The position numbers and the translations under genes were made by a program. The notes beneath the pieces were generated by a model. The model did no database searches. It worked only from the letters and a program-made list of their open reading frames with translations, and had not been told where the DNA came from. Positions 1 to 14,260 of a DNA stretch of 64,000 nt are shown in pieces. This stretch comes from Methylobacterium radiodurans (GTDB taxonomy: Bacteria > Pseudomonadota > Alphaproteobacteria > Rhizobiales > Beijerinckiaceae). The DNA is taken from positions 4,231,001 through 4,295,000 of the forward strand of contig NZ_CP029551.1 of NCBI RefSeq assembly GCF_003173735.1, written 5' to 3'. The first letter of the stretch is position 1. Each line of letters opens with the position of its first letter.

Positions 1-863
1 CGGAGCCGTCGCTGCTGCCGCGCTTGATCCCGCCGCGGGGAGGAAGTTTCGTCGAACGGCCTGCCGTTGCCGTCGCACGATCGATCCGCGGCGGATTCGA
101 CCTGACGATCGTCGATGCCGGTACCGGCAACCTCCCGCGATTGGGCGCCCTCCCCTTCGATGCGGTGCTCGTCGGTGCCGGACCCTGCGATATCGAGGAG
201 CGTCGCGCGGCGTCGTTTGCCGGATCGCTGCCCGGACACCTCTCGCGGGTCACGTGGTTGCTCGGGCTGGACCGCGACGGAGGCGAGCCCGAGCTGAGGC
301 GCTTCGAGCACGGCGTGCGTTCGGCGCTCTCCGAGACGGGCACGCTTCGGACCCCGCGCATCCTGCCCGCACTCGCGCCGATCCTGCGTCGCGCCGACAC
401 GGACAGGCTCCTCGCCGGCCGGCCGTCCGCCCGGGTGCTCGGGGCCGGGGTCGCCCTCCTCGCCTCGATCGCCTCGGCGGTCGACGCCGAGCGGGGCGGA
501 ACCCTCGAGGGCCCATGGTCGAGTCTCGCCGAGGCCGTGGGGGGTACGCGCCCATGCGATCGGCGGGACGAGGCCGAGACGCTCCGGGCGCTGGCCGACG
601 ACCTGGAGCGCATCGCGGACGGCGGCGGCCCGACGGCCGAGGACCTCGCGCACGCGCCCGTGCTTGAGCAGTGGGAGAGCGCCGCGCGGATAACCCGGTG
701 CCTCGTCGGCGTCGTGGGCGGTCATCCCAACCTCCCGTCCGGGAAGCAGGTTCGGACGTCGGAGGTCTATGCCACCGACGGACGTTCCTGGGCGCGAACC
801 CTTTCGCGCTTCTACGTGCTTCGTACCCCCCGGCAGGAGCTTCCGTCCGTCAACGTGCACTGA
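1..863 (+). CDS. ParA-like / DUF6634 protein, 5' end outside window
   Basis: The reading frame is open to the left edge, so the N-terminus is missing; the TTG at 24 is only the first possible start inside the window. The N-terminal half reads like the back half of a ParA/MinD-type ATPase (FDLTIVDAG near residue 25, then FDAVLVGAGP), but any P-loop would lie upstream. The last ~90 residues (from about LRALADDLERIAD to WARTLSRFYVLRT) resemble the DUF6634 family of alphaproteobacteria, whose function is unknown. A perfect hairpin follows the stop. The coding frame is clear; the family calls are recognition by eye. Confidence 0.7.
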   Translation, partial: EPSLLPRLIPPRGGSFVERPAVAVARSIRGGFDLTIVDAGTGNLPRLGALPFDAVLVGAGPCDIEERRAASFAGSLPGHLSRVTWLLGLDRDGGEPELRRFEHGVRSALSETGTLRTPRILPALAPILRRADTDRLLAGRPSARVLGAGVALLASIASAVDAERGGTLEGPWSSLAEAVGGTRPCDRRDEAETLRALADDLERIADGGGPTAEDLAHAPVLEQWESAARITRCLVGVVGGHPNLPSGKQVRTSEVYATDGRSWARTLSRFYVLRTPRQELPSVNVH

Positions 864-1337: not shown

Positions 1338-2117
1338 TCAGGCCCCGAGTTGGCGCCCGATCCGCAACGACCGGTCGACTGCGAACTCGCCCACGCGCTT
1401 CCTGCAGGTTTCAGGCGCGGGGGGCCGGGTCAGCGACCTGCAACGGGGGCGCCGGCGGGCCGCGTCATCCCGGAAACGGCCGCCGCCCGCCCGGGCGCGC
1501 GCCTGAAGGCGTCGTCCGACGACGCGCAGGCACTCCTCGACCTGTACCCATCGGCCGCTCGCGTCCCCGGGGCCGATACCGGAGCACGCCGCGGCTAGGA
1601 CGTCGGTGGTCAGCAGGAGCGAACGGTGCAGCAGGGGCTCGCCCGGCCTTCCCTTCAGCAGGTCCGCTTGGCAAAGGCGGCCAGGCCTCGGCACCCCGAT
1701 CGAGGCGATCATGCCGGAGCCGATCTCGGGACCCGGCCCTTCGATCCGTGACGCGAGGGCATGGATCCGGGAACGCGGATCGGCGTCAGCCTCCGGTGCG
1801 CCGCGGACCGGATCGACGTAGGCGGTCGGCATCGCGATTGCGTCGAGGTCACGGGCCGCGTCCGGGCTGCGGAGCGCCACGAGGACATCGTCATGGCGGT
1901 CGCGCCCGAATATCGCGAGGACGCGTCGGCGCAGGAAGCGCGCCGGTACCCGGACGACCCGCATGCCTCGTGCGGTCGGCCGCGCGGCGACGTCGACGGG
2001 CACGACGCCCGCCTCGACGACGATGGCGGGGCGGCGCCCCGCGAGCGTCAGGCCGTTCGCCACCATGAGCGCCGACCAGAACGATGAGCAGTCCTTGGAG
2101 TGGAACACGATGACCAT
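1338..2117 (-). CDS. Hypothetical protein, weakly ParA/MinD-like without a P-loop
   Basis: 259 residues. The start is supported by GGCGGAGG 9 nt upstream. The beginning (MVIVFHSKD, then ANGLTLAGRRPAIVVEAG) follows the beta-loop-helix-beta pattern of ParA/MinD ATPases, but the expected GKT/GKS P-loop is replaced by HSKDCSSFWS, so ATP binding is doubtful. The C-terminal ~60 residues are Arg-rich and may be read past the true domain. A near-perfect palindrome with a TATAAT sequence lies 26-42 nt upstream. With the partial gene at the left edge, this could be a second relic of a partition-like module; that is inference. Confidence 0.45.
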   Translation of the reverse strand: MVIVFHSKDCSSFWSALMVANGLTLAGRRPAIVVEAGVVPVDVAARPTARGMRVVRVPARFLRRRVLAIFGRDRHDDVLVALRSPDAARDLDAIAMPTAYVDPVRGAPEADADPRSRIHALASRIEGPGPEIGSGMIASIGVPRPGRLCQADLLKGRPGEPLLHRSLLLTTDVLAAACSGIGPGDASGRWVQVEECLRVVGRRLQARARAGGGRFRDDAARRRPRCRSLTRPPAPETCRKRVGEFAVDRSLRIGRQLGA

Positions 2118-3015
2118 CGTATCTGGGCCTCCGCCGTTCGATTTGTATCATTGATATAATATCGCGATCGGTGCGGACCTCCAATCCCCGGAACCATCTT
2201 GCCGGTCCCTTTTCCTCGGATTGGTTTGCGAAACGTGATCGTTCCATATCCGGACCAAGCCGAGGACTGTATGGCGTTAGGTTATCTTCGCGGCTCGTGC
2301 ATAGTATTCATCTCTAGACTTAGGTTCATCTCGTGCCCGGCGCGAAAGTCTCGCGGTGCCGCCGATCGAAGCTCTGCGGCAGAGGCAGTCCTGTGCGTCT
2401 ACAGTGGCCGGGGTGGATCATGGGAGACGCCAACGACATCGCCGCCGGTCGCCCGTGGTCCGACGAAGTCCTGACCGTTCCTGCGCGCGTCGTGCGCGAG
2501 AGTTGCGATGGCCGACACGGGTCCATCGAGATCGCGCGGGATTTTCCGGGCATAGCGTGCAGCGCTTGGCTGATCCTGCGCCCTCAGCGCGCTTCGCGCC
2601 GGCGGCTTGGGTCCCTCGGGACGGAAGCGTGGACCGGCGGAGGGGAGATGCAGAGCAGAGTGAAGCCCCGATCACTGCGCGCAAGCACTTCGTCGCGGGT
2701 GTGCCGTGCCTTGGGGTGACGCGCCGTCCGGGGCACCCGGCGAAAGGCAGGGACGCCCGTCACCGAAGCCTGCGATGCGGGGGCAACCTCTCATCTTCGA
2801 CGTCGAGGGAAGTTCGATCCTGGCGATGCTTCGTACTTCGGGCAGGGCGAGCCCGCTCGATCATCGGCGTTCGCGTGGCTCGACCACCGCCCGCCCTGAC
2901 GCTCGGTGAACTCGGCTGAATCCAAGCGCTGGCCGTCGGCGGCGTCAGCGCGGGGTCGGCACCGTTTGGCACCGGTCCCGCGGGGGCCTGAAATAATCGC
3001 GCTTCGGGAGAGGTC
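2118..3015. other. About 0.9 kb without a confident gene
   Basis: Apart from the palindrome at 2143 nothing is secure. A weak plus-strand frame, 2420-2719, begins MGDANDIAAG after a GGGGTGG sequence, but its second half has Arg/Ser-rich composition typical of chance frames. Confidence 0.4.
2143..2159. promoter_or_regulatory. Palindromic operator-like site upstream of the 2117 gene
   Basis: TTGTATCA-T-TGATATAA, 8-bp arms with one mismatch. It overlaps the AT-rich segment that would be the promoter of the minus-strand gene starting at 2117. TATAAT at 2155-2160 reads on the plus strand, with no good -35. A repressor site is inferred. Confidence 0.4.
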
Positions 3016-5621: not shown

Positions 5622-6134
5622 TTATCCCGCGTGCCCGTCCCCGAGGTTTCCGACCGGCTTGGCGCGTGGGGCATGCGCCGGCGCCTTCCTCGGAGAGCGC
5701 GATCGCCCCTGCTCGTCATCGCGGCTCGCCGAAGCCACGACGCCGACGAAGCCGGGTCCGGTGACGAGGCGCGCGCCCTGTTCACGCAGGGTGGCGGCTA
5801 TCCGTTCGATCAGCGGGGGGCGCAGGACCGCGAACCCGTTCTCGTAGTCGTTGATGCTCTTCTTCGAGACGCGCGAGAGGAGGTGAAGCTCCTGCTGCGA
5901 CAGGCCGATCAGGTTTCGAGCGGCTTGGCACAGGTATCCCGGCACCGCCTTTTCCGAAGGCCACTCGCCGAACGTGGAAGGGTCCAGTGCCGTGACCGGG
6001 GTCCGAGTGGCATGGAACAGCTTCATGACGGTCGTGTAGTTCCATCCTGCCTCGGGCGAAGCGGGCAACCCGGCTCCCGCCGACGCACCCTCCTCGCCCG
6101 TGGCGGATGCCAGCCGACGTTTGGACACTGCCAT
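5622..6134 (-). CDS. XRE-family helix-turn-helix regulator
   Basis: 170 residues; the start is set by AAAGG 7 nt before the ATG. A helix-turn-helix sits at about residues 68-120: CQAARNLIGLSQQELHLLS, then SKKSINDYENGF as recognition helix and turn, followed by IERIAATLREQGARL. The ~45-residue N-terminus and the basic C-terminal tail (from DDEQGRSRSPRK) look disordered. It is probably a DNA-binding repressor of unknown target. It lies alone between two long gene-free stretches, so no operon partner helps assign its role. Confidence 0.75.
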   Translation of the reverse strand: MAVSKRRLASATGEEGASAGAGLPASPEAGWNYTTVMKLFHATRTPVTALDPSTFGEWPSEKAVPGYLCQAARNLIGLSQQELHLLSRVSKKSINDYENGFAVLRPPLIERIAATLREQGARLVTGPGFVGVVASASRDDEQGRSRSPRKAPAHAPRAKPVGNLGDGHAG

Positions 6135-7957: not shown

Positions 7958-8123
7958 TCCGCGACGCGACTGTCGCGCTACCGGTCCGGTCGATCAACCC
8001 TGCTCCGGCATGGCATGACCCGCGTCCCCATTCGGCCGCCGGACGCGGGCACGGACCGACTCCTCAAGGTGCTTACGACGCTGACCATGTCGCGCCGGAC
8101 GGAGCGGTCGCAGGGGCACGCGG

Positions 8124-8152
8124 TTGCGGCGTTATTTTACCTCTGGTATAAT
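8124..8152 (+). promoter_or_regulatory. Sigma70-type promoter of the AAA-protease cluster
   Basis: TTGCGG (8124-8129), a 17-nt spacer and a consensus TATAAT (8147-8152). Predicted start of transcription is near 8159, giving a leader of about 135 nt before the ATG at 8293. It is the best consensus promoter I found in the window. Confidence 0.55.
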
Positions 8153-8155
8153 AAC
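8131..8155. promoter_or_regulatory. Palindromic operator overlapping the -10 element
   Basis: Two 11-bp arms, GTTATTTTACC (8131-8141) and GGTATAATAAC (8145-8155), pair with one mismatch around TCT. The right arm contains the whole -10 box, so a protein bound here would block RNA polymerase. No regulator gene lies adjacent. Confidence 0.55.
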
Positions 8156-8292
8156 CGGCGTTCCGACATCGTGTGGCGAATGAGAGCGCCGGCCGCTCGC
8201 GGGCTCCGGGCCGGGGACGGTCCGCGACCTGCGAACGCCCGCGGGGGAAGCCAGCGGGTCGCGCACGCCCCTCGCCGGAAGGACGGTAACTC

Positions 8293-8796
8293 ATGTCTCG
8301 AACGCGTACCAGGACGGAGGATCGCGATGGGCAACGTCGCATGGTCGGACCGGGGCAAGCGCCGGGGATGCACGGATTGAGACCTGGACGGCATCGGGGG
8401 CCCCTGTCCGTCTGGCGCAGGAGGGATCCGGCAAGCCTCACGGGCAACGACCTGTCGGGCCTCGTGACGCTGGTCGGATCCACGGCGATGTGGGGCGAGC
8501 CCCGTTGGGCAGCCGCCAGGCGCGGGGATCCCGCGGCCGCCGCCGCCGTGGCGCTGGATCATGTCCGTCGTTGCGGTGCCGATTCGACCGCGTCCGACCT
8601 CGTCATGTGCAATCTCGTCCTGCTCGCCGCGGCCGGTGACGCGACCGCTCCCGTCGTGATCGCCCATGCCCTCGCGGCCCTCGCGCGACGACGCCCCGGG
8701 GACGCCGCGCTGCCCGCTCTCGCCGCGGGATGGGTCCGTCGCCCTCCTGCCGGACGGGGCGGCCACGCCCGGCGTCCCCGGCGGCCCCGGGGCTAG
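8293..8796 (+). CDS. Hypothetical protein, first gene of the protease-exonuclease cluster
   Basis: 167 residues; GGAAGGACGG precedes the ATG. The first ~40 residues are basic. Residues ~46-140 look like a folded helical domain (NDLSGLVTLVGSTAMWG, AAAVALDHVRRCG, VIAHALAALARR). The tail is Arg/Gly-rich and may be disordered. No signal peptide or catalytic motif is seen. It is 47 nt upstream of the AAA+ protease gene on the same strand and behind the only clear promoter, so cotranscription is likely. I do not recognise a family. Confidence 0.5.
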   Translation: MSRTRTRTEDRDGQRRMVGPGQAPGMHGLRPGRHRGPLSVWRRRDPASLTGNDLSGLVTLVGSTAMWGEPRWAAARRGDPAAAAAVALDHVRRCGADSTASDLVMCNLVLLAAAGDATAPVVIAHALAALARRRPGDAALPALAAGWVRRPPAGRGGHARRPRRPRG

Positions 8797-8843
8797 GCGC
8801 GCGCCGGACACGATGACCGAACATTCGCAAGCACGGAGGTCAC

Positions 8844-10922
8844 ATGGGCGCGGCTGGGAGCGGGAACGGGGGCGGGAACAGGGCGAGGGCCTTCATCGCG
8901 TCCCTTCGGGCCGAGGCCCGGTCCAGGAACGCGCCCTTCGACCTGGCCGGTCCGGAATTCGATGCCTGGATCGAGGCGAGTCCGAAGGTCGGGGCCGAGC
9001 CGCCCGCGCGCGTGGCCGCCGACGTCGCCGGCGCCGCGGTCGTCTTGGCGAAGGGCCTCGGACGCGATCTTCCGGGCCTTGCCTGCGACGCTCCCCCGGC
9101 GATCGTCGTGCAGGTCGCTTCCGCCGAGTGGGTCGAGCCGATGCGGCGCGCCCTCGGGCCCTGCCTGCTCGGGCCCGGGGGCAAGGTGCTCGACGGGTCC
9201 GCCATGAGGCGCTCGTTCGACGACGACACGAAGGGCGGCCTCGTCGTCTTCGCGTGCGACGGCAACTCGCGGGAGCACCGTCCCGACCGTGGCAACGACA
9301 TCGTCGGCGCGGCCCTGCTGGCGGGTCACGCTGTCGTGGGCATCAGCCCGAGTCCCGCCACCCTGCTGCCCGCGGACATCGTCGCGGCGGCCGACCTCAG
9401 GGTGCGCGCCGGGCCGCTCGACGGCGAGGGTCTGGCCCTCGTCATCGAGGCCGTGACCGGGACCGTCCCGTCCGATCCGGTGCCCGACGCGCTCGCGCGG
9501 TCGTGCGGTCCGGGCGATCTCAGGGCCTGCGTCCGACATGGCAGGGACGCCGATGCCGCCGTCGCGAGGCTGGAAGGGCGGGACGGTCCGGGCACCCGCG
9601 CGGCCGACGCATGCCCGAAGCTCGAGGACATGCACGGCTACGGCAAGGCAAGGGATTGGGGACTCGCGCTCGTCGCCGACCTGCGACTCTGGCTTTCCGG
9701 CACCATCCCTTTCTCGGCCTGCGAGTCGGCGGCCCTGGTCAGCGGGCCGCCCGGATGCGGGAAGACGCGCTTCGCGATGGCGCTCGCCCGCAGCGCCGGG
9801 CTGCCCCTGCTCGCGGGGTCGCTCGGCCAGTGGCAGTCCGCGAGGGACGGTCATCTTGGGCATACCTTGGGGGCGATGCGGCAGTTCTTCGAACTCGCCC
9901 GCCGCGCGCCTTGCGTGGCCCTGATCGACGAGCTGGATTCCTTCGGGGATCGCGCGGCGTTCGCCTCCGAGCACCGCGACTACTCCGTCCAAGTCGTGAA
10001 CGCCCTGTTGGAGCATCTCGACGGAGCGGTCGCCCGCGAGGGCGTGGTGGTCATCGGGACCACCAACCATCCGTCCAGGATCGATCCGGCCATCCTGCGT
10101 TCCGGGCGGCTGGATCGCCACTTCGAGATCGGGTTGCCAAACCTGGACGCCCTGGTCGGAATGCTCCGCCTCCACCTCGGGACCGACGGCGAGGGCTTCG
10201 ATCTCGCACCGATCGCGGCACTCGTCCGCGGCAGGACGGGCGCCGACGTGGAGGCATTGGTCCGGCGCGCCCGCGGGATCGCGCGCCGGGCCGGCAGGCC
10301 GCTCGTCCGCGACGACCTGCTCCACGCCGCGGCGGACGGCGTCCCGCAGCTCGGCGCGGGGTTGCGCATGCGCTGCGCGGTGCACGAGGCCGGCCACGCC
10401 GTGGCGCTCCTGTCCGGCGGCGCGCAGGACACGGTGACCCTCTCCATCACCGCGGCCGGGGGGCTGACCGAATGGGTGCGCGACGAGCCGTACGGAGGCA
10501 TGACCGAGCCCGACATCGAGCGCTTCCTCATCGTGGCGTTGGCCGGCCGGGCGGCCGAGGAGGTGCTGCTCGGAAACGTGTCGTCCGGGTCGGCCGACGA
10601 CCTGGCCGTCGCGACCCGGTGCGCCGCCGCCATGGAGGGGAGCTGGGGCTTCTCGTCCGAGTTCCCCCTGGTCTCCCTGGCCCAAGGGCGGGACGTCGAT
10701 CTCGCGCGGATGCCCTGGCTGCTGCGGCCGGTGCACGAGCGCCTCCGCCAGGCCTACGAGCTGGCCTGCGACCTGATGCGGGTCGAGCGCCTCGCCCTCG
10801 AACGGCTGGCGGAAGGCCTGTTCCGAGACGGTTACCTCGATGACGCCCGGACCCGTGCCCTGTTCGCCGGTCGCCCGGCGCGCCGGGCGCATGGCCGTAC
10901 CGGCGGTTCCGGCCGATCCTGA
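8844..10922 (+). CDS. Soluble FtsH-like AAA+ ATPase with M41 metallopeptidase domain
   Basis: 692 residues, GGAGG 5 nt before the ATG. Residues ~1-270 match no known domain by eye and contain no transmembrane segment, unlike true FtsH, whose N-terminus crosses the membrane twice. The AAA+ module has Walker A GPPGCGKT (301-308), Walker B VALIDELDS (358-366), sensor-1 TTN (406-408) and Arg-finger region SGRLDRHFE (420-428). A peptidase M41 domain follows with the zinc motif HEAGH (514-518), ALAGRAAEEVLLG (567-577) and the likely third-ligand region SADDLAVAT (583-591). All parts for ATP-driven proteolysis seem intact, in the cytoplasm. The substrate is unknown. Confidence 0.92.
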   Translation: MGAAGSGNGGGNRARAFIASLRAEARSRNAPFDLAGPEFDAWIEASPKVGAEPPARVAADVAGAAVVLAKGLGRDLPGLACDAPPAIVVQVASAEWVEPMRRALGPCLLGPGGKVLDGSAMRRSFDDDTKGGLVVFACDGNSREHRPDRGNDIVGAALLAGHAVVGISPSPATLLPADIVAAADLRVRAGPLDGEGLALVIEAVTGTVPSDPVPDALARSCGPGDLRACVRHGRDADAAVARLEGRDGPGTRAADACPKLEDMHGYGKARDWGLALVADLRLWLSGTIPFSACESAALVSGPPGCGKTRFAMALARSAGLPLLAGSLGQWQSARDGHLGHTLGAMRQFFELARRAPCVALIDELDSFGDRAAFASEHRDYSVQVVNALLEHLDGAVAREGVVVIGTTNHPSRIDPAILRSGRLDRHFEIGLPNLDALVGMLRLHLGTDGEGFDLAPIAALVRGRTGADVEALVRRARGIARRAGRPLVRDDLLHAAADGVPQLGAGLRMRCAVHEAGHAVALLSGGAQDTVTLSITAAGGLTEWVRDEPYGGMTEPDIERFLIVALAGRAAEEVLLGNVSSGSADDLAVATRCAAAMEGSWGFSSEFPLVSLAQGRDVDLARMPWLLRPVHERLRQAYELACDLMRVERLALERLAEGLFRDGYLDDARTRALFAGRPARRAHGRTGGSGRS

Positions 10923-10937
10923 AGAGCGGGAGGATTC

Positions 10938-11912
10938 ATGCTCGACCAGCACCGCGGTGGCACCCAGCCGCGTCTTCCGGGCGTCGCCCGCCCTGCCGGG
11001 CGGCACGGCCCGGGCGTCCTGTCGTCCGACCCCGCCCGAGGTCGGCAGCACCCGCACTCGGGCGCGTCCCGGACCTCGATGCGCTCTCACAATGGGGAGG
11101 AGCACCCGAACGACACCTTGCTGATGCTCGACGTCGAGACCGTGCCGGACCCCGCGCTGATGCCGGGGGATTGGCCCGCGGACCGGTTCCCGAAGCCGCT
11201 CTGGCACAAGGTGGTCGCCATCTCCGTCGTCGAGGCCGCGGTCGGCAGGGATCCCGGGACGCGTTCGGAGACCTACGAGGTCCGCTCCTGTCGCAGCGGC
11301 GGTGAACCGGATTGGGACGAGGTCCGGCTCCTACGGGCGTTCTGGAAGCTCTTCGAGGGTGCCCGGCACAGGGTCGTCACCTGGAACGGTCGCGCGTTCG
11401 ACATGCCGGTCATCCTCGCCCGCTCCCTCGTGCATGGCCTCTCGGCGCCCGCCTGGTTCCAGAGAGGCACCAGATGGGCCAACTACGGGCAGCGCCACGC
11501 CCAGGAGTGGCACCTCGACCTCATGGACGCGATGTCCTCGTTCGGCGCCGCGCCGCGCCTCACGCTGGAGGAGGCCGCCGCCGCGGTCGGCGCGCCGGGC
11601 AAGATGGGCGAGCACGGGTCCTGCGTCGCGGATCTCGTGTCCCGCGGCGAGATCGCGCGCGTGCGCGCCTACTGCGAGACCGACGTCGCGAACCTCTTCG
11701 TCGTCTTCCTCAGATGGGCCCACCTCACCGGTCGGGTGGACGCGGGCTCCCACGACGAGGCGATCGACGGCCTCTTGCGCCGCCTGGACGAGGACGGCGC
11801 GGAAAGGCCGCACCTTGCGGCCTTCGCCCGGGAATGGCGCAGTAACGCGGAACGCGTGCCGCCTTACGTGGGACGGCGATCGCAGGACGGCCTGCGTCCC
11901 CGCGGGGGGTAG
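10938..11912 (+). CDS. PolB-type 3'-5' exonuclease (DEDDy fold)
   Basis: 324 residues; GGGAGG lies 5 nt before the ATG, only 15 nt after the previous stop. Residues ~1-58 are a basic, low-complexity lead. The exonuclease core begins at about 60 with ExoI LDVETVPD (D65, E67), ExoII VVTWNGRAFDMP (D155) and ExoIII YCETD (Y245, D249), so all four DEDDy acidic residues and the Tyr are present. The family is the predicted 3'-5' exonuclease related to DNA polymerase B (PF10108 type). It should trim single-stranded DNA or RNA ends; no polymerase domain is attached. Its coupling to the AAA+ protease gene is the unusual part. Confidence 0.88.
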   Translation: MLDQHRGGTQPRLPGVARPAGRHGPGVLSSDPARGRQHPHSGASRTSMRSHNGEEHPNDTLLMLDVETVPDPALMPGDWPADRFPKPLWHKVVAISVVEAAVGRDPGTRSETYEVRSCRSGGEPDWDEVRLLRAFWKLFEGARHRVVTWNGRAFDMPVILARSLVHGLSAPAWFQRGTRWANYGQRHAQEWHLDLMDAMSSFGAAPRLTLEEAAAAVGAPGKMGEHGSCVADLVSRGEIARVRAYCETDVANLFVVFLRWAHLTGRVDAGSHDEAIDGLLRRLDEDGAERPHLAAFAREWRSNAERVPPYVGRRSQDGLRPRGG

Positions 11913-12096
11913 GCACCCGCTCCCCCGAGCCCCGCCGCGGCCATCGCGCGGCCTTGGGCGTACCCCCAGGTCGCCACGGCCCGGGCAGGGCCGCGATCGT
12001 CCTCCGGCCGGCAATGTCCGTTGACGGATCCGCTCAAGCATGACCGCGCCCCCGTCTCCCGACGCCGGGACGTTTCGCCCTGCCCGGAGGCCAAGG

Positions 12097-12885
12097 ATGA
12101 AGCTCTGGATCTTCTCGGACCTGCACCGCGACGTCGGCCGTCCCTGGACCCCGCCGGCCATCCCTCCGGCCGACGTGGCAGTCGTCGCGGGCGATCTCGG
12201 CGGATGCCTCGCCGACGGCGTGGCATGGCTCGCGCGGGTGGTTCGCCCCCACATGCCGGTCGTGCTCGTCGCCGGGAACTGCGATTTCCACGGGAGGTGC
12301 CATCCGGAGGAGCTGAGACGGGCGCGGGCGGCCGCCCGCGATCGGGGCATCGACCTCCTGGAAAACCGGAGCGTGGTGATCGGCGACGTAGCCTTCTCGG
12401 GCTGCACCTTGTGGACGGATTACGACCTCGAAGGCGAGCGCTGGCGCGCGGACGCCATGCGCGAGGCCGCCGATGGCTTGAACGACCACAGGTTGATCGC
12501 CGCGCGGCGCGAGCCGCGGCGGCAGCCTTTCCGACCGGAACATGCGGCGGAGCTTCATCGGGACTCCCGTGCCTTCCTGCAGGCCGCCCTCGCGGCCAGG
12601 TCGGGCGAGGCCCGCGCCCGCGTCGTCGTCTCGCATCATGCCCCGAGCGGACGCTCCGTCGCCAAGCGGTATCTCGGACGGCCGATGAACCCGAGCTTCG
12701 CCTCGCGCCTCGATAGCTTGGTCGCAGCCGCGGCTCCCGGGATCTGGGTGCACGGCCACGCCCATGCGTCCTTCGATTACCGCTGCGGCGATACCCGCGT
12801 GCTGTGCAATCCGAAGGGATACGGGGCCGAGAACCCGGATTTCGATCCTGCCATGTTGGTCGATGTCCCCTCGGCGGAGAGCTGA
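12097..12885 (+). CDS. Calcineurin-like metallophosphoesterase
   Basis: 262 residues from the ATG at 12097, which has GGAGG 8 nt upstream; an ATG at 12040 would add 19 residues without a similar site. Motifs of a two-metal phosphoesterase are complete: FSDLH (D8, H10), AGDLGG (D33), AGNCDFH (N61, with Cys in place of the usual His of GNH), VVSHHAPSG and HGHAH near the C-terminus. The reaction is hydrolysis of a phosphomonoester or phosphodiester; the substrate is unknown. It lies 184 nt after the exonuclease gene and is followed by a degenerate paralogue. Confidence 0.9.
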   Translation: MKLWIFSDLHRDVGRPWTPPAIPPADVAVVAGDLGGCLADGVAWLARVVRPHMPVVLVAGNCDFHGRCHPEELRRARAAARDRGIDLLENRSVVIGDVAFSGCTLWTDYDLEGERWRADAMREAADGLNDHRLIAARREPRRQPFRPEHAAELHRDSRAFLQAALAARSGEARARVVVSHHAPSGRSVAKRYLGRPMNPSFASRLDSLVAAAAPGIWVHGHAHASFDYRCGDTRVLCNPKGYGAENPDFDPAMLVDVPSAES

Positions 12886-12958
12886 CGTCCCGCCGGCGAC
12901 GGCAGGCCATTCCGGTACCGACCCCTTTCCTACCGACCCGGTCCCGCAGGAGGACGCC

Positions 12959-13936
12959 ATGCCGAAGGTTGCCCTGGATCCCTTCGATGACGCACCCGCG
13001 CCGCTGCCGCGGCGCGGGAACCTTCCGGCCCCGGCCGACCGGTCGCGCGATGCGTCCGGCGACGCGCCTGCGCCGGTGAGGCGGCCGATGCGGATCTGGA
13101 TCCTCTCGGACCTGCAAACCGATCGCGAGGTGCTGCCCGCCCTTCCCGTCGTGGCGCCCGACTTCGACGTGCTCGTCCTGGCGGGCGGCATCGCCCCGAG
13201 CCTGGAAGCCTGCTTGCGCTGGATCGCCGCGGAGCGGGATGGGCTCATCGCGGGCAAGCCGGTCATCCTCGTGGCCGGCAGCGCGGAGTTCGGAACGGCC
13301 GCCCCGGACCCGGACGGGATCGCGCGGGCGCGCGAGCTCGCCGTCGGCATGGGCGTCAGGCTCCTGTCGGACGAGACCGCGCGACTGGAGGCACCGGACG
13401 GCACCGCCGTCCACGTCGTGGGGGCCACGCTGTGGACCGATTGGTGCCTCATGGGCCCGTTCCAGGGGCAAGGCGCCCGGGTCCAGGCCCGGCGTATGTG
13501 GTCGGCCGACGGCTCCCACCCGGTCCGCCCGCCAGGCTGGTCGCCGCACGACGCATTGGCCGCCCACGCGCGATCGCGGGCATACATCGAGGACGCCCTC
13601 GCAGCGATCGTCCAACAAGGCCTCGGCTTCAGGCCGGGACCTCAAACCTTGGTTCCCGGCGTCCGTCCCGAGGACCGTGCCGTCGTGGTCACGCACCACG
13701 CGCCGTCCCGCCGATGCCTGCCCGAGCTTTGGAAGGGGTGGAGTTACGAGCGATGGTTGCCGGCGACGTATGCTTCCGACCTGGAAGCGATCATGCTGTC
13801 CTGGGGTGCCCCGGCCCTCTGGATCCATGGCGCCGTCCCCGAGGCGGTCGACATCCGCGTCGGCAAGACCCGCGTGGTCGCCAATCCCAGAGGCGTGGGC
13901 AACGGCTTCGACCCGTCGCTGGTCGTGGAAGTGTGA
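12959..13936 (+). CDS. Degenerate metallophosphoesterase paralogue (probable pseudoenzyme)
   Basis: 325 residues; GCAGGAGG precedes the ATG at 12959. From residue ~44 it parallels the preceding gene: MRIWILSDLQTD, VLVLAGGIAP, ILVAGSAEFG, VTLWTDW-type region, VVVTHHAPSRR, WIHGAVPEAVD. The metal ligands are replaced: SDLH to SDLQ, GDL to GGI, GNCD to GSAE, HGHAH to HGAVP. Only the HHAP motif stays. The frame is intact, so it looks selected without catalysis, perhaps as a partner or regulator of its neighbour. The N-terminal ~43 residues are Pro/Arg-rich. A hairpin follows the stop. Confidence 0.88.
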   Translation: MPKVALDPFDDAPAPLPRRGNLPAPADRSRDASGDAPAPVRRPMRIWILSDLQTDREVLPALPVVAPDFDVLVLAGGIAPSLEACLRWIAAERDGLIAGKPVILVAGSAEFGTAAPDPDGIARARELAVGMGVRLLSDETARLEAPDGTAVHVVGATLWTDWCLMGPFQGQGARVQARRMWSADGSHPVRPPGWSPHDALAAHARSRAYIEDALAAIVQQGLGFRPGPQTLVPGVRPEDRAVVVTHHAPSRRCLPELWKGWSYERWLPATYASDLEAIMLSWGAPALWIHGAVPEAVDIRVGKTRVVANPRGVGNGFDPSLVVEV

Positions 13937-13957
13937 GCCGACGGTTCACGTCCCCTA

Positions 13958-13980
13958 CCCCGGTTCCGGAGCCACCGGGG
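13958..13980 (+). terminator. Hairpin at the end of the protease-exonuclease cluster
   Basis: CCCCGGT pairs with ACCGGGG around a 9-nt loop, 21 nt after the stop of the second phosphoesterase. The stem is short (7 bp) and no U-tract follows. Confidence 0.35.
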
Positions 13981-14071
13981 CCCATCTCCTCCCAGCGCCG
14001 GTGTCGCCTACGTGGATCGGGGCCACTCCGAGGCAGTGGCCGCCTTGCCACGGCAGGACCGTGCGGCCGCG

Positions 14072-14260
14072 TCGGCGGCGGGGCGGATCCGGGCACGCCT
14101 CGGCAGGCAGCGCCTCGTCGACGAAGGTTCGGGCGACCCGACTGGCCGGATCACGGTATCGATCGCCGACGTGGAGTATCGACCGGAGGAGGGCATCGCG
14201 AGCCTGGTCGAGCGCGCCGACCAAGGCCTCCGCGCCGCGAAGGGGGCGGAACGGAATCGC
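14072..14260 (+). pseudogene. Fragment of a GGDEF (diguanylate cyclase) domain
   Basis: The translation AAGRIRARLGRQRL, then GRITVSIADVEYRPEEGIASLVERAD and GLRAAKGAERNR follows the C-terminal third of GGDEF domains (usual pattern TVSIG...Y...E....LL.RAD.AL..AK..GRN). The GGDEF motif and everything N-terminal are absent. The usual Gly of SIG and the Tyr of ALYxAK are changed. It is a relic with no start of its own. Confidence 0.6.

Follow-up and report, generated by a model that had tools for sequence, protein, structure and literature searches.

A conserved protease-exonuclease-phosphoesterase module with a shared operator on mobile DNA of Methylobacterium

We analysed a 64,000-nucleotide stretch of Methylobacterium radiodurans DNA (the window; positions 4231001-4295000 of a single 5.54-Mb contig) in which five genes follow a 25-bp palindrome, and found that they are a co-oriented unit of a conserved, selectively maintained module that has a shared operator and lies on mobile DNA. 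The module is carried on integrated islands and plasmids of Methylobacterium-type bacteria, with a link to recombinases in some islands. All five open reading frames (ORFs) downstream of the palindrome are on the plus strand, as an initial annotation of the window had described; in window coordinates, these genes and their control region are as follows.

8124..8155, plus strand: promoter with operator (from sequence and a conserved operator pattern)
8293..8796, plus strand: small protein (no Pfam family; 17 aligned relatives from module loci)
8844..10922, plus strand: AAA-M41 protease (AAA and Peptidase_M41 matches, motifs and predicted structure)
10938..11912, plus strand: exo, a DEDDy 3'-5' exonuclease of PF10108 (Pfam match; invariant catalytic residues)
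12040..12885, likely start 12097, plus strand: mpe1, a metallophosphoesterase (Metallophos match; Cys in place of the GNH His)
12959..13936, plus strand: mpe2, a phosphoesterase pseudoenzyme (no Pfam match; ligand loss across the family)

The fifth ORF as called opens at 12764, and 12959 is an in-frame ATG. The gap ahead of mpe1 is 127-184 nt, and the true start of this gene, judged by its relatives, is likely the ATG at 12097; the small protein may also begin at a later ATG, 8341 or 8365.

The second protein matches AAA (E 4.5e-28) and Peptidase_M41 (E 2.6e-17; 63.8 bits against a cut-off of 29.9) in Pfam, and an alignment of 18 AAA-M41 proteins shows no variation in the HExxH motif, the Walker A lysine or the acidic residues of Walker B. 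Its highest 19-residue Kyte-Doolittle mean is 1.43, in a comparison that holds no valid FtsH control, and a relative at locus L034 peaks at 1.66; the usual cut-off for membrane segments is about 1.6. With HExxH invariant and no evident membrane helix, the initial description of a soluble FtsH-like AAA+/M41 protein with an intact HEAGH motif is upheld. The N-terminus is modelled as an alpha/beta domain in place of membrane helices, and the protein appears to consist of a degenerate N-terminal AAA-like domain (approximately residues 52-252) without a P-loop, an active AAA domain (approximately 256-500) and M41. FtsH is its best Foldseek match (E 6.8e-25). AAA-M41 thus has in common with FtsH and other M41 AAA proteases the two domains, the Walker motifs and HExxH, but differs from FtsH in its score against the FtsH equivalog model TIGR01241 (167.3 bits, below the 600-bit cut-off), in having no evident membrane helix and in its additional P-loop-less domain. 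Compared with the two-ring AAA machines p97/Cdc48, Rix7, NVL and Drg1, its first domain lacks the P-loop and a protease follows the second. Among models of defence proteins, the PADLOC IetA model matches the AAA part with E 3.2e-24, and IteA_antiphage gives 84.2 bits against a cut-off of 510.

The exonuclease matches PF10108 over its full length (187 bits against a cut-off of 24; E 3.7e-55), and its acidic residues and a Y..C..D motif are invariant in 19 sequences, in agreement with the DEDDy PolB-type assignment made initially. The function of PF10108 is only predicted, in the family name given by Pfam. The full-length match is common to PF10108 exonucleases, and what sets exo apart is that it is one component of a module. 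The fourth protein, mpe1, matches Metallophos above the Pfam cut-off (E 1.4e-6) and the PADLOC model PDC-S10 (E 2.4e-9). In the window copy a Cys occupies the position that in most relatives is the His of GNH(E/D), with the other metal-ligand motifs retained. The fifth protein, mpe2, and the small protein have no Pfam match. In the mpe2 family the last metal-ligand His is absent from 47 of 47 sequences and the first His is retained in 4 of 47, a family-wide loss that bears out the reading of the fifth gene as a pseudoenzyme. The small protein is mainly helical by composition and belongs to no family in the Pfam, NCBIfam or PADLOC scans. Substitution rates between L034 and L085 point to purifying selection on all five genes compared, the pseudoenzyme included, with dN/dS of 0.13-0.29 (0.29 for the small protein and 0.15 for mpe2).

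To place these genes in context we used 99 genomes of the genus Methylobacterium, a sample that is not independent (eight genomes have near-identical module matches). The exonuclease was found at 60 places, which belong to 43 genomes. AAA-M41 (E 1e-40 or better) is encoded by 65 genomes, and 80 have relatives of mpe2, a group that takes in mpe1. An AAA-M41 gene lies within 10 kb of 43 of the 60 exo places, compared with about 0.5 expected, which answers in the affirmative, for this genus, the question put by the initial annotation whether AAA-M41 and PF10108 genes co-occur. At least 46 of the 60 have a phosphoesterase within the same distance, a lower bound because the 63 phosphoesterase places were hand-picked from a longer list, and 52 have either AAA-M41 or a phosphoesterase. 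Two further genes are found with the set, one with a DUF6634 domain and one for a helix-turn-helix (HTH) regulator; in the window both lie upstream of the five, as do a third gene and a second operator-like site.

24..863, plus strand: DUF6634 (PF20339-type) gene (match at 156-860; PF20339 found in the homologue on plasmid pCMU01); the gene start probably lies left of the window edge
1338..2117, minus strand: geneY, a protein behind a weaker operator-like site (ORF)
2143..2160, plus strand: weaker operator-like site with 3 mismatches (26 nt upstream of geneY)
5622..6134, minus strand: HTH regulator, a homologue of an Xre-type (HTH_3) gene (48.7% identity to a pCMU01 protein matching HTH_3)

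We examined 42 of the 60 exo places, 41 of them fetched and one the window itself; L100, taken for its mpe2 and without exo, was excluded. An AAA protein of either kind is present in 36, DUF6634 in 36, mpe1 in 28, mpe2 in 25, the small protein in 24 and the HTH gene in 11, and 23 loci are complete, with exo, AAA, DUF6634, the small protein and the two phosphoesterases. Each of the 162 core genes lies on the strand of exo. Gene order is fluid, with two common arrangements (DUF6634 - small - mpe1 - AAA - mpe2 - exo, and DUF6634 - mpe1 - mpe2 - small - AAA-M41 - exo) and a short form (AAA-M41 - DUF6634 - exo). A second AAA type occupies 8 of the 42 loci, and the five of these that were scanned match PF00004 and not M41. 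Loci L112-L122 carry the compact AAA-M41 - DUF6634 - exo form, sometimes with mpe1 upstream, which may be the minimal core of the module. At L091, L092 and L096 the exo gene is interrupted by an in-frame stop and stands without other module genes close by; these are probably decayed remnants.

By the terms of the initial annotation, a scatter of homologues with no shared neighbourhood would have told against its reading. Within the genus this did not occur, yet 86 of the 129 AAA-M41 places lack an exo gene in the surrounding 10 kb, and AAA-M41 proteins therefore also occur elsewhere. That count, together with the gene order of the window (small - AAA-M41 - exo - mpe1 - mpe2, with DUF6634 and HTH upstream), which was seen once among the 42 loci, would be expected if the genes were neighbours by hitch-hiking on islands and had no joint function. 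We consider this explanation very improbable, as it does not account for genes that co-occur again and again in varied orders, keep strictly to one strand, have an operator in common and include a pseudoenzyme partner that is conserved.

The palindrome occupies 8131-8155 and contains the sequence TATAAT at 8147-8152, so that the -10 element does sit inside it, as first noted. The accompanying -35-like TTGCGG (8124-8129, 17-nt spacer) shares 3 of its 6 positions with TTGACA, and a standard scan of 8000-14200 lists no promoter. A strong sigma-70 promoter was set aside on that scan, and the initial label of best consensus promoter in the window is too strong. Also discarded was the hairpin thought to close the set, which folds no better than shuffled sequence (z 0.30; equalled or bettered by 121 of 200 shuffles) and does not figure among the terminators of the scan.

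On sequence evidence, the palindrome over the -10 element is a conserved operator, TTATACCnnnGGTATAAT. The window has three matches to this pattern at up to 3 mismatches compared with 0.04 expected. Across 1.42 Mb of fetched loci, 50 strand-hits agree at 12 or more of 15 positions compared with 4 in a single first-order Markov randomisation, a count in which a few sites enter twice because of overlapping loci. Allowing at most one mismatch, the operator occurs at 49 distinct places in 18 of the 99 genomes, and the reversed control pattern has no match in any of the 99. All 18 operator-bearing genomes have exo, as do 25 of the other 81. Using hand-made lists of module and integrase places, we found that 41 of the 49 sites have a listed module gene no more than 15 kb away or a listed integrase no more than 3 kb away, and that 8 have neither. 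The M. radiodurans genome itself gives 13 strand-hits at up to 3 mismatches, whereas the control gives 3. Seven of the 13 have no more than 2 mismatches and represent 4 places within 44 kb (4195118-4239152).

The operator also tracks the regulator gene. In modules with a divergent HTH gene it is found close to where the DUF6634 unit begins, and in L034, L084, L085 and L086 it precedes the small - AAA-M41 unit. It is present in 12 of 12 HTH-bearing module loci versus 1 of 14 main-type DUF6634 loci without HTH (10 of 10 versus 1 of 14 when L084-L086 are merged), a comparison that omits the AAA-M41 - DUF6634 - exo loci L099 and L112-L122. Modules without HTH have other AT-rich stretches upstream. 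These observations suggest that the HTH protein may repress through the palindrome. Conserved neighbourhood and the co-occurrence of operator and module together lend support to the initial view that the genes form one system behind an operator-overlapped promoter.

Several operator sites of the M. radiodurans genome mark other genes of the island. One, at 4195118, precedes a large serine recombinase by about 0.6 kb; one, at 4189333 (3 mismatches), 0.1 kb upstream of a tyrosine integrase; one, at 4230430, upstream of geneX, which is followed by an extra mpe1; and one, at 4230778, upstream of DUF6634. The weaker site at window position 2143 (3 mismatches) precedes geneY, and the palindrome described above stands ahead of the five genes. 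This distribution is what one would expect if the module served the mobile element itself, in its excision, replication, re-establishment or stability, with the HTH protein as master repressor and the module co-induced with recombinases, an explanation that we rank second because the same operator marks recombinase loci. It is consistent with the presence of 9 of the 49 genus operator sites within 3 kb of an integrase, although these lie mostly about 0.3 kb past the integrase 3' end and not upstream; with exo in 21 of the 26 genomes (of 99) that have the integrase; and with genome G218, where integrase and recombinase homologues adjoin module pieces. On the other side, just 5 of the 99 genomes have the serine recombinase at the cut-off applied, the integrase often lies 50-115 kb from the module, 22 of the 43 exo genomes lack this integrase, and the protease and the phosphoesterase pair are not known to act in excision. 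We regard a life-cycle function as a real possibility, if less likely than not.

GeneX (L123:8493-9392) encodes an uncharacterised protein directly behind its operator-like site, as does geneY. Loci L089, L094, L099 and L102 each have a geneX homologue in the vicinity of the module, and in L089 and L102 an operator site adjoins it. A third, short phosphoesterase, mpe3 (L289:6615-7241; genome approximately 4190614-4191240), is located on the same island, downstream of its serine recombinase, and is 63% identical to a phosphoesterase beside exo in pCMU01; relatives of mpe3 adjoin AAA-M41 genes on several viral contigs.

The neighbourhood of the module was seen in two islands. In M. radiodurans, the interval between integrase and module holds a patatin, an Eco57I-type methylase, an S8 subtilase and an MBL protein and, by eye, respiratory and sensory genes. 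On pCMU01, a plasmid typed as conjugative, the order is HTH - DUF6634 - small - mpe2 - AAA - exo - mpe3, beside TIR, S8, MBL and SIR2 genes. The S8 subtilase at L290:3496-6544 adjoins an MBL-fold protein matching LmuA/Avs1a models, and a similar S8 and MBL pair lies near the module on pCMU01. Ten flank proteins were scanned singly, of which two, near-identical, match LmuB models and one matches PDC-S37; the common Pfam families in module flanks are ordinary ones. No coupling protein (PF02534) was found in the M. radiodurans genome, and at least one was found in 5 of 9 genomes, each on a contig other than that of the module, these being draft contigs for which linkage is possible. No tRNA was found as an integration site in the island stretches or the window.

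Beyond the genus, in a class-wide search, AAA-M41 reached E 1e-80 in 11 of 289 genomes, M. radiodurans among them, and none of the 11 loci from the other 10 genomes has exo, mpe or DUF6634 genes of the module families. A scan of named genomes with a single AAA-M41 protein gave only 2 loci. Plasmid records from Shinella, Rhizobium and Bosea hold AAA-M41 with phosphoesterases; Azospirillum records with exo and with AAA-M41, and a Rhodovastum record, show no set members together in the stretch seen. Among named phages, where the proteins were compared singly, AAA-M41 has matches at E 1e-20 or better in 25 records, in no case across 80% of its length, and exo has matches in 3; on these results we set aside the module's presence there. 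On viral contigs we analysed 35 exo loci, none with another module gene in the fetched stretch, and 80 of 175 AAA-M41 relatives, 13 of which have another module gene (12 a phosphoesterase, 3 DUF6634 and 2 the second AAA type, with overlap possible). Within M. radiodurans, a second AAA-M41 gene (102767-104215; L002, L046) has 40% identity, and no other module family was detected in the 20 kb around it. At L203:7686-10219 and L151:7491-10015, AAA-M41 genes are directly followed by a 186-aa gene, which in L203 looks by eye like a DEDD-type exonuclease and in L151 is annotated as a transcriptional regulator.

In one plan common among relatives, a divergent HTH gene and the operator are followed by DUF6634 - small - mpe1 - AAA - mpe2 - exo; the window has a rearranged order, in which DUF6634 and the HTH gene lie kilobases upstream. 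The initial annotation inferred a role in stress-induced nucleic-acid repair, RNA turnover or defence; the occurrence on islands, plasmids and prophage-like contigs, with this operator near recombinase genes, shifts the picture towards mobile elements. We propose that the HTH protein binds the palindrome over the -10 element and thereby silences the module and the other island genes with the same site. Once repression is lifted, a soluble, ATP-driven protease (pseudo-AAA, AAA and M41) would unfold and degrade target proteins, probably ones bound to nucleic acid, and the 3'-5' exonuclease, acting jointly with an active/inactive phosphoesterase pair, would process the nucleic acid so exposed. 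Our tentative first choice for the purpose of such a repressor-silenced, nucleoprotein-degrading island module, held at somewhat less than even confidence, is that it defends the cell that carries the island from phage or from rival mobile DNA. We rank it first because of composition, patchiness, copy number and the neighbours seen in the two islands. A more specific version appears doubtful to us, namely an immune or inter-element conflict system of islands in which the AAA-gated metalloprotease, exonuclease and phosphoesterase pair strip and digest foreign nucleoprotein on release by the repressor that also frees the recombinases; if it holds, the common repressor would make defence and mobility one response. 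A host stress module, in which induced protein quality control is combined with nucleic-acid repair or RNA turnover, would suit the chemistry of an FtsH-type protease and an exonuclease. It is improbable given the patchy distribution of exo, the several divergent copies in some genomes, the ties to islands, plasmids and viral contigs, and the element-type operator.

A comparison of flanks for defence genes, with 24 families in 121 flank ORFs and 68 in 121 ORFs from random regions, tells for neither side, the control rows shown being mostly models of one helicase (180 flank ORFs were called in 30 loci; 121 of 133 ORFs of at least 150 aa, and 121 of 130 control ORFs, were used). Other observations weigh against the defence reading. 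PADLOC reported domain-level matches only (IetA for the AAA part and PDC-S10 for mpe1) and no known system. Activity of the window mpe1 is in doubt because the GNH His is missing; 6 of the 42 exo loci have no other module gene detected; and many modules lack the HTH gene and operator. The operator shared with recombinase loci fits element biology at least as well.

IetAS, an anti-phage system, consists of an AAA ATPase and a subtilisin-type protease and resembles the module in coupling an AAA ATPase to proteolysis; here, however, the protease is a fused M41 domain and not a separate S8 protein, and the exonuclease and phosphoesterases are additional. Pfam finds no S8 protein (IetS) among the five genes, and the nearest S8 gene found is about 29 kb away. 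In the ImmR/ImmA control of ICEBs1-like elements, a single mobile element likewise carries an Xre-type regulator and an HExxH protease. Unlike AAA-M41, the protease ImmA is small and lacks an AAA domain. The initial annotation knew of no described system with this combination, and we found none in the Pfam, NCBIfam and PADLOC scans; no paper listed in searches of open-access full text, a corpus outside which preprints and most subscription papers lie, describes the gene set, and DUF6634 occurs in none. The exonuclease family PF10108 itself occurs in one paper, PMC3985635.

The folds are known, but as far as we have seen there is no description of the combination, of the pseudo-AAA + AAA + M41 protein or of the operator-defined regulon. 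Genes named only 'AAA family ATPase', 'metallophosphoesterase' or '3'-5' exonuclease', as in pCMU01, can now be read as one unit. The set recurs, has an operator to itself and includes a protease of unusual architecture and a conserved pseudoenzyme, and so offers a well-defined target, with one regulator, one site and one gene set. Should the defence reading be true, nuclease-based immunity would gain an M41 proteolytic machine; if element biology is the answer, the module would show what islands switch on along with their recombinases.

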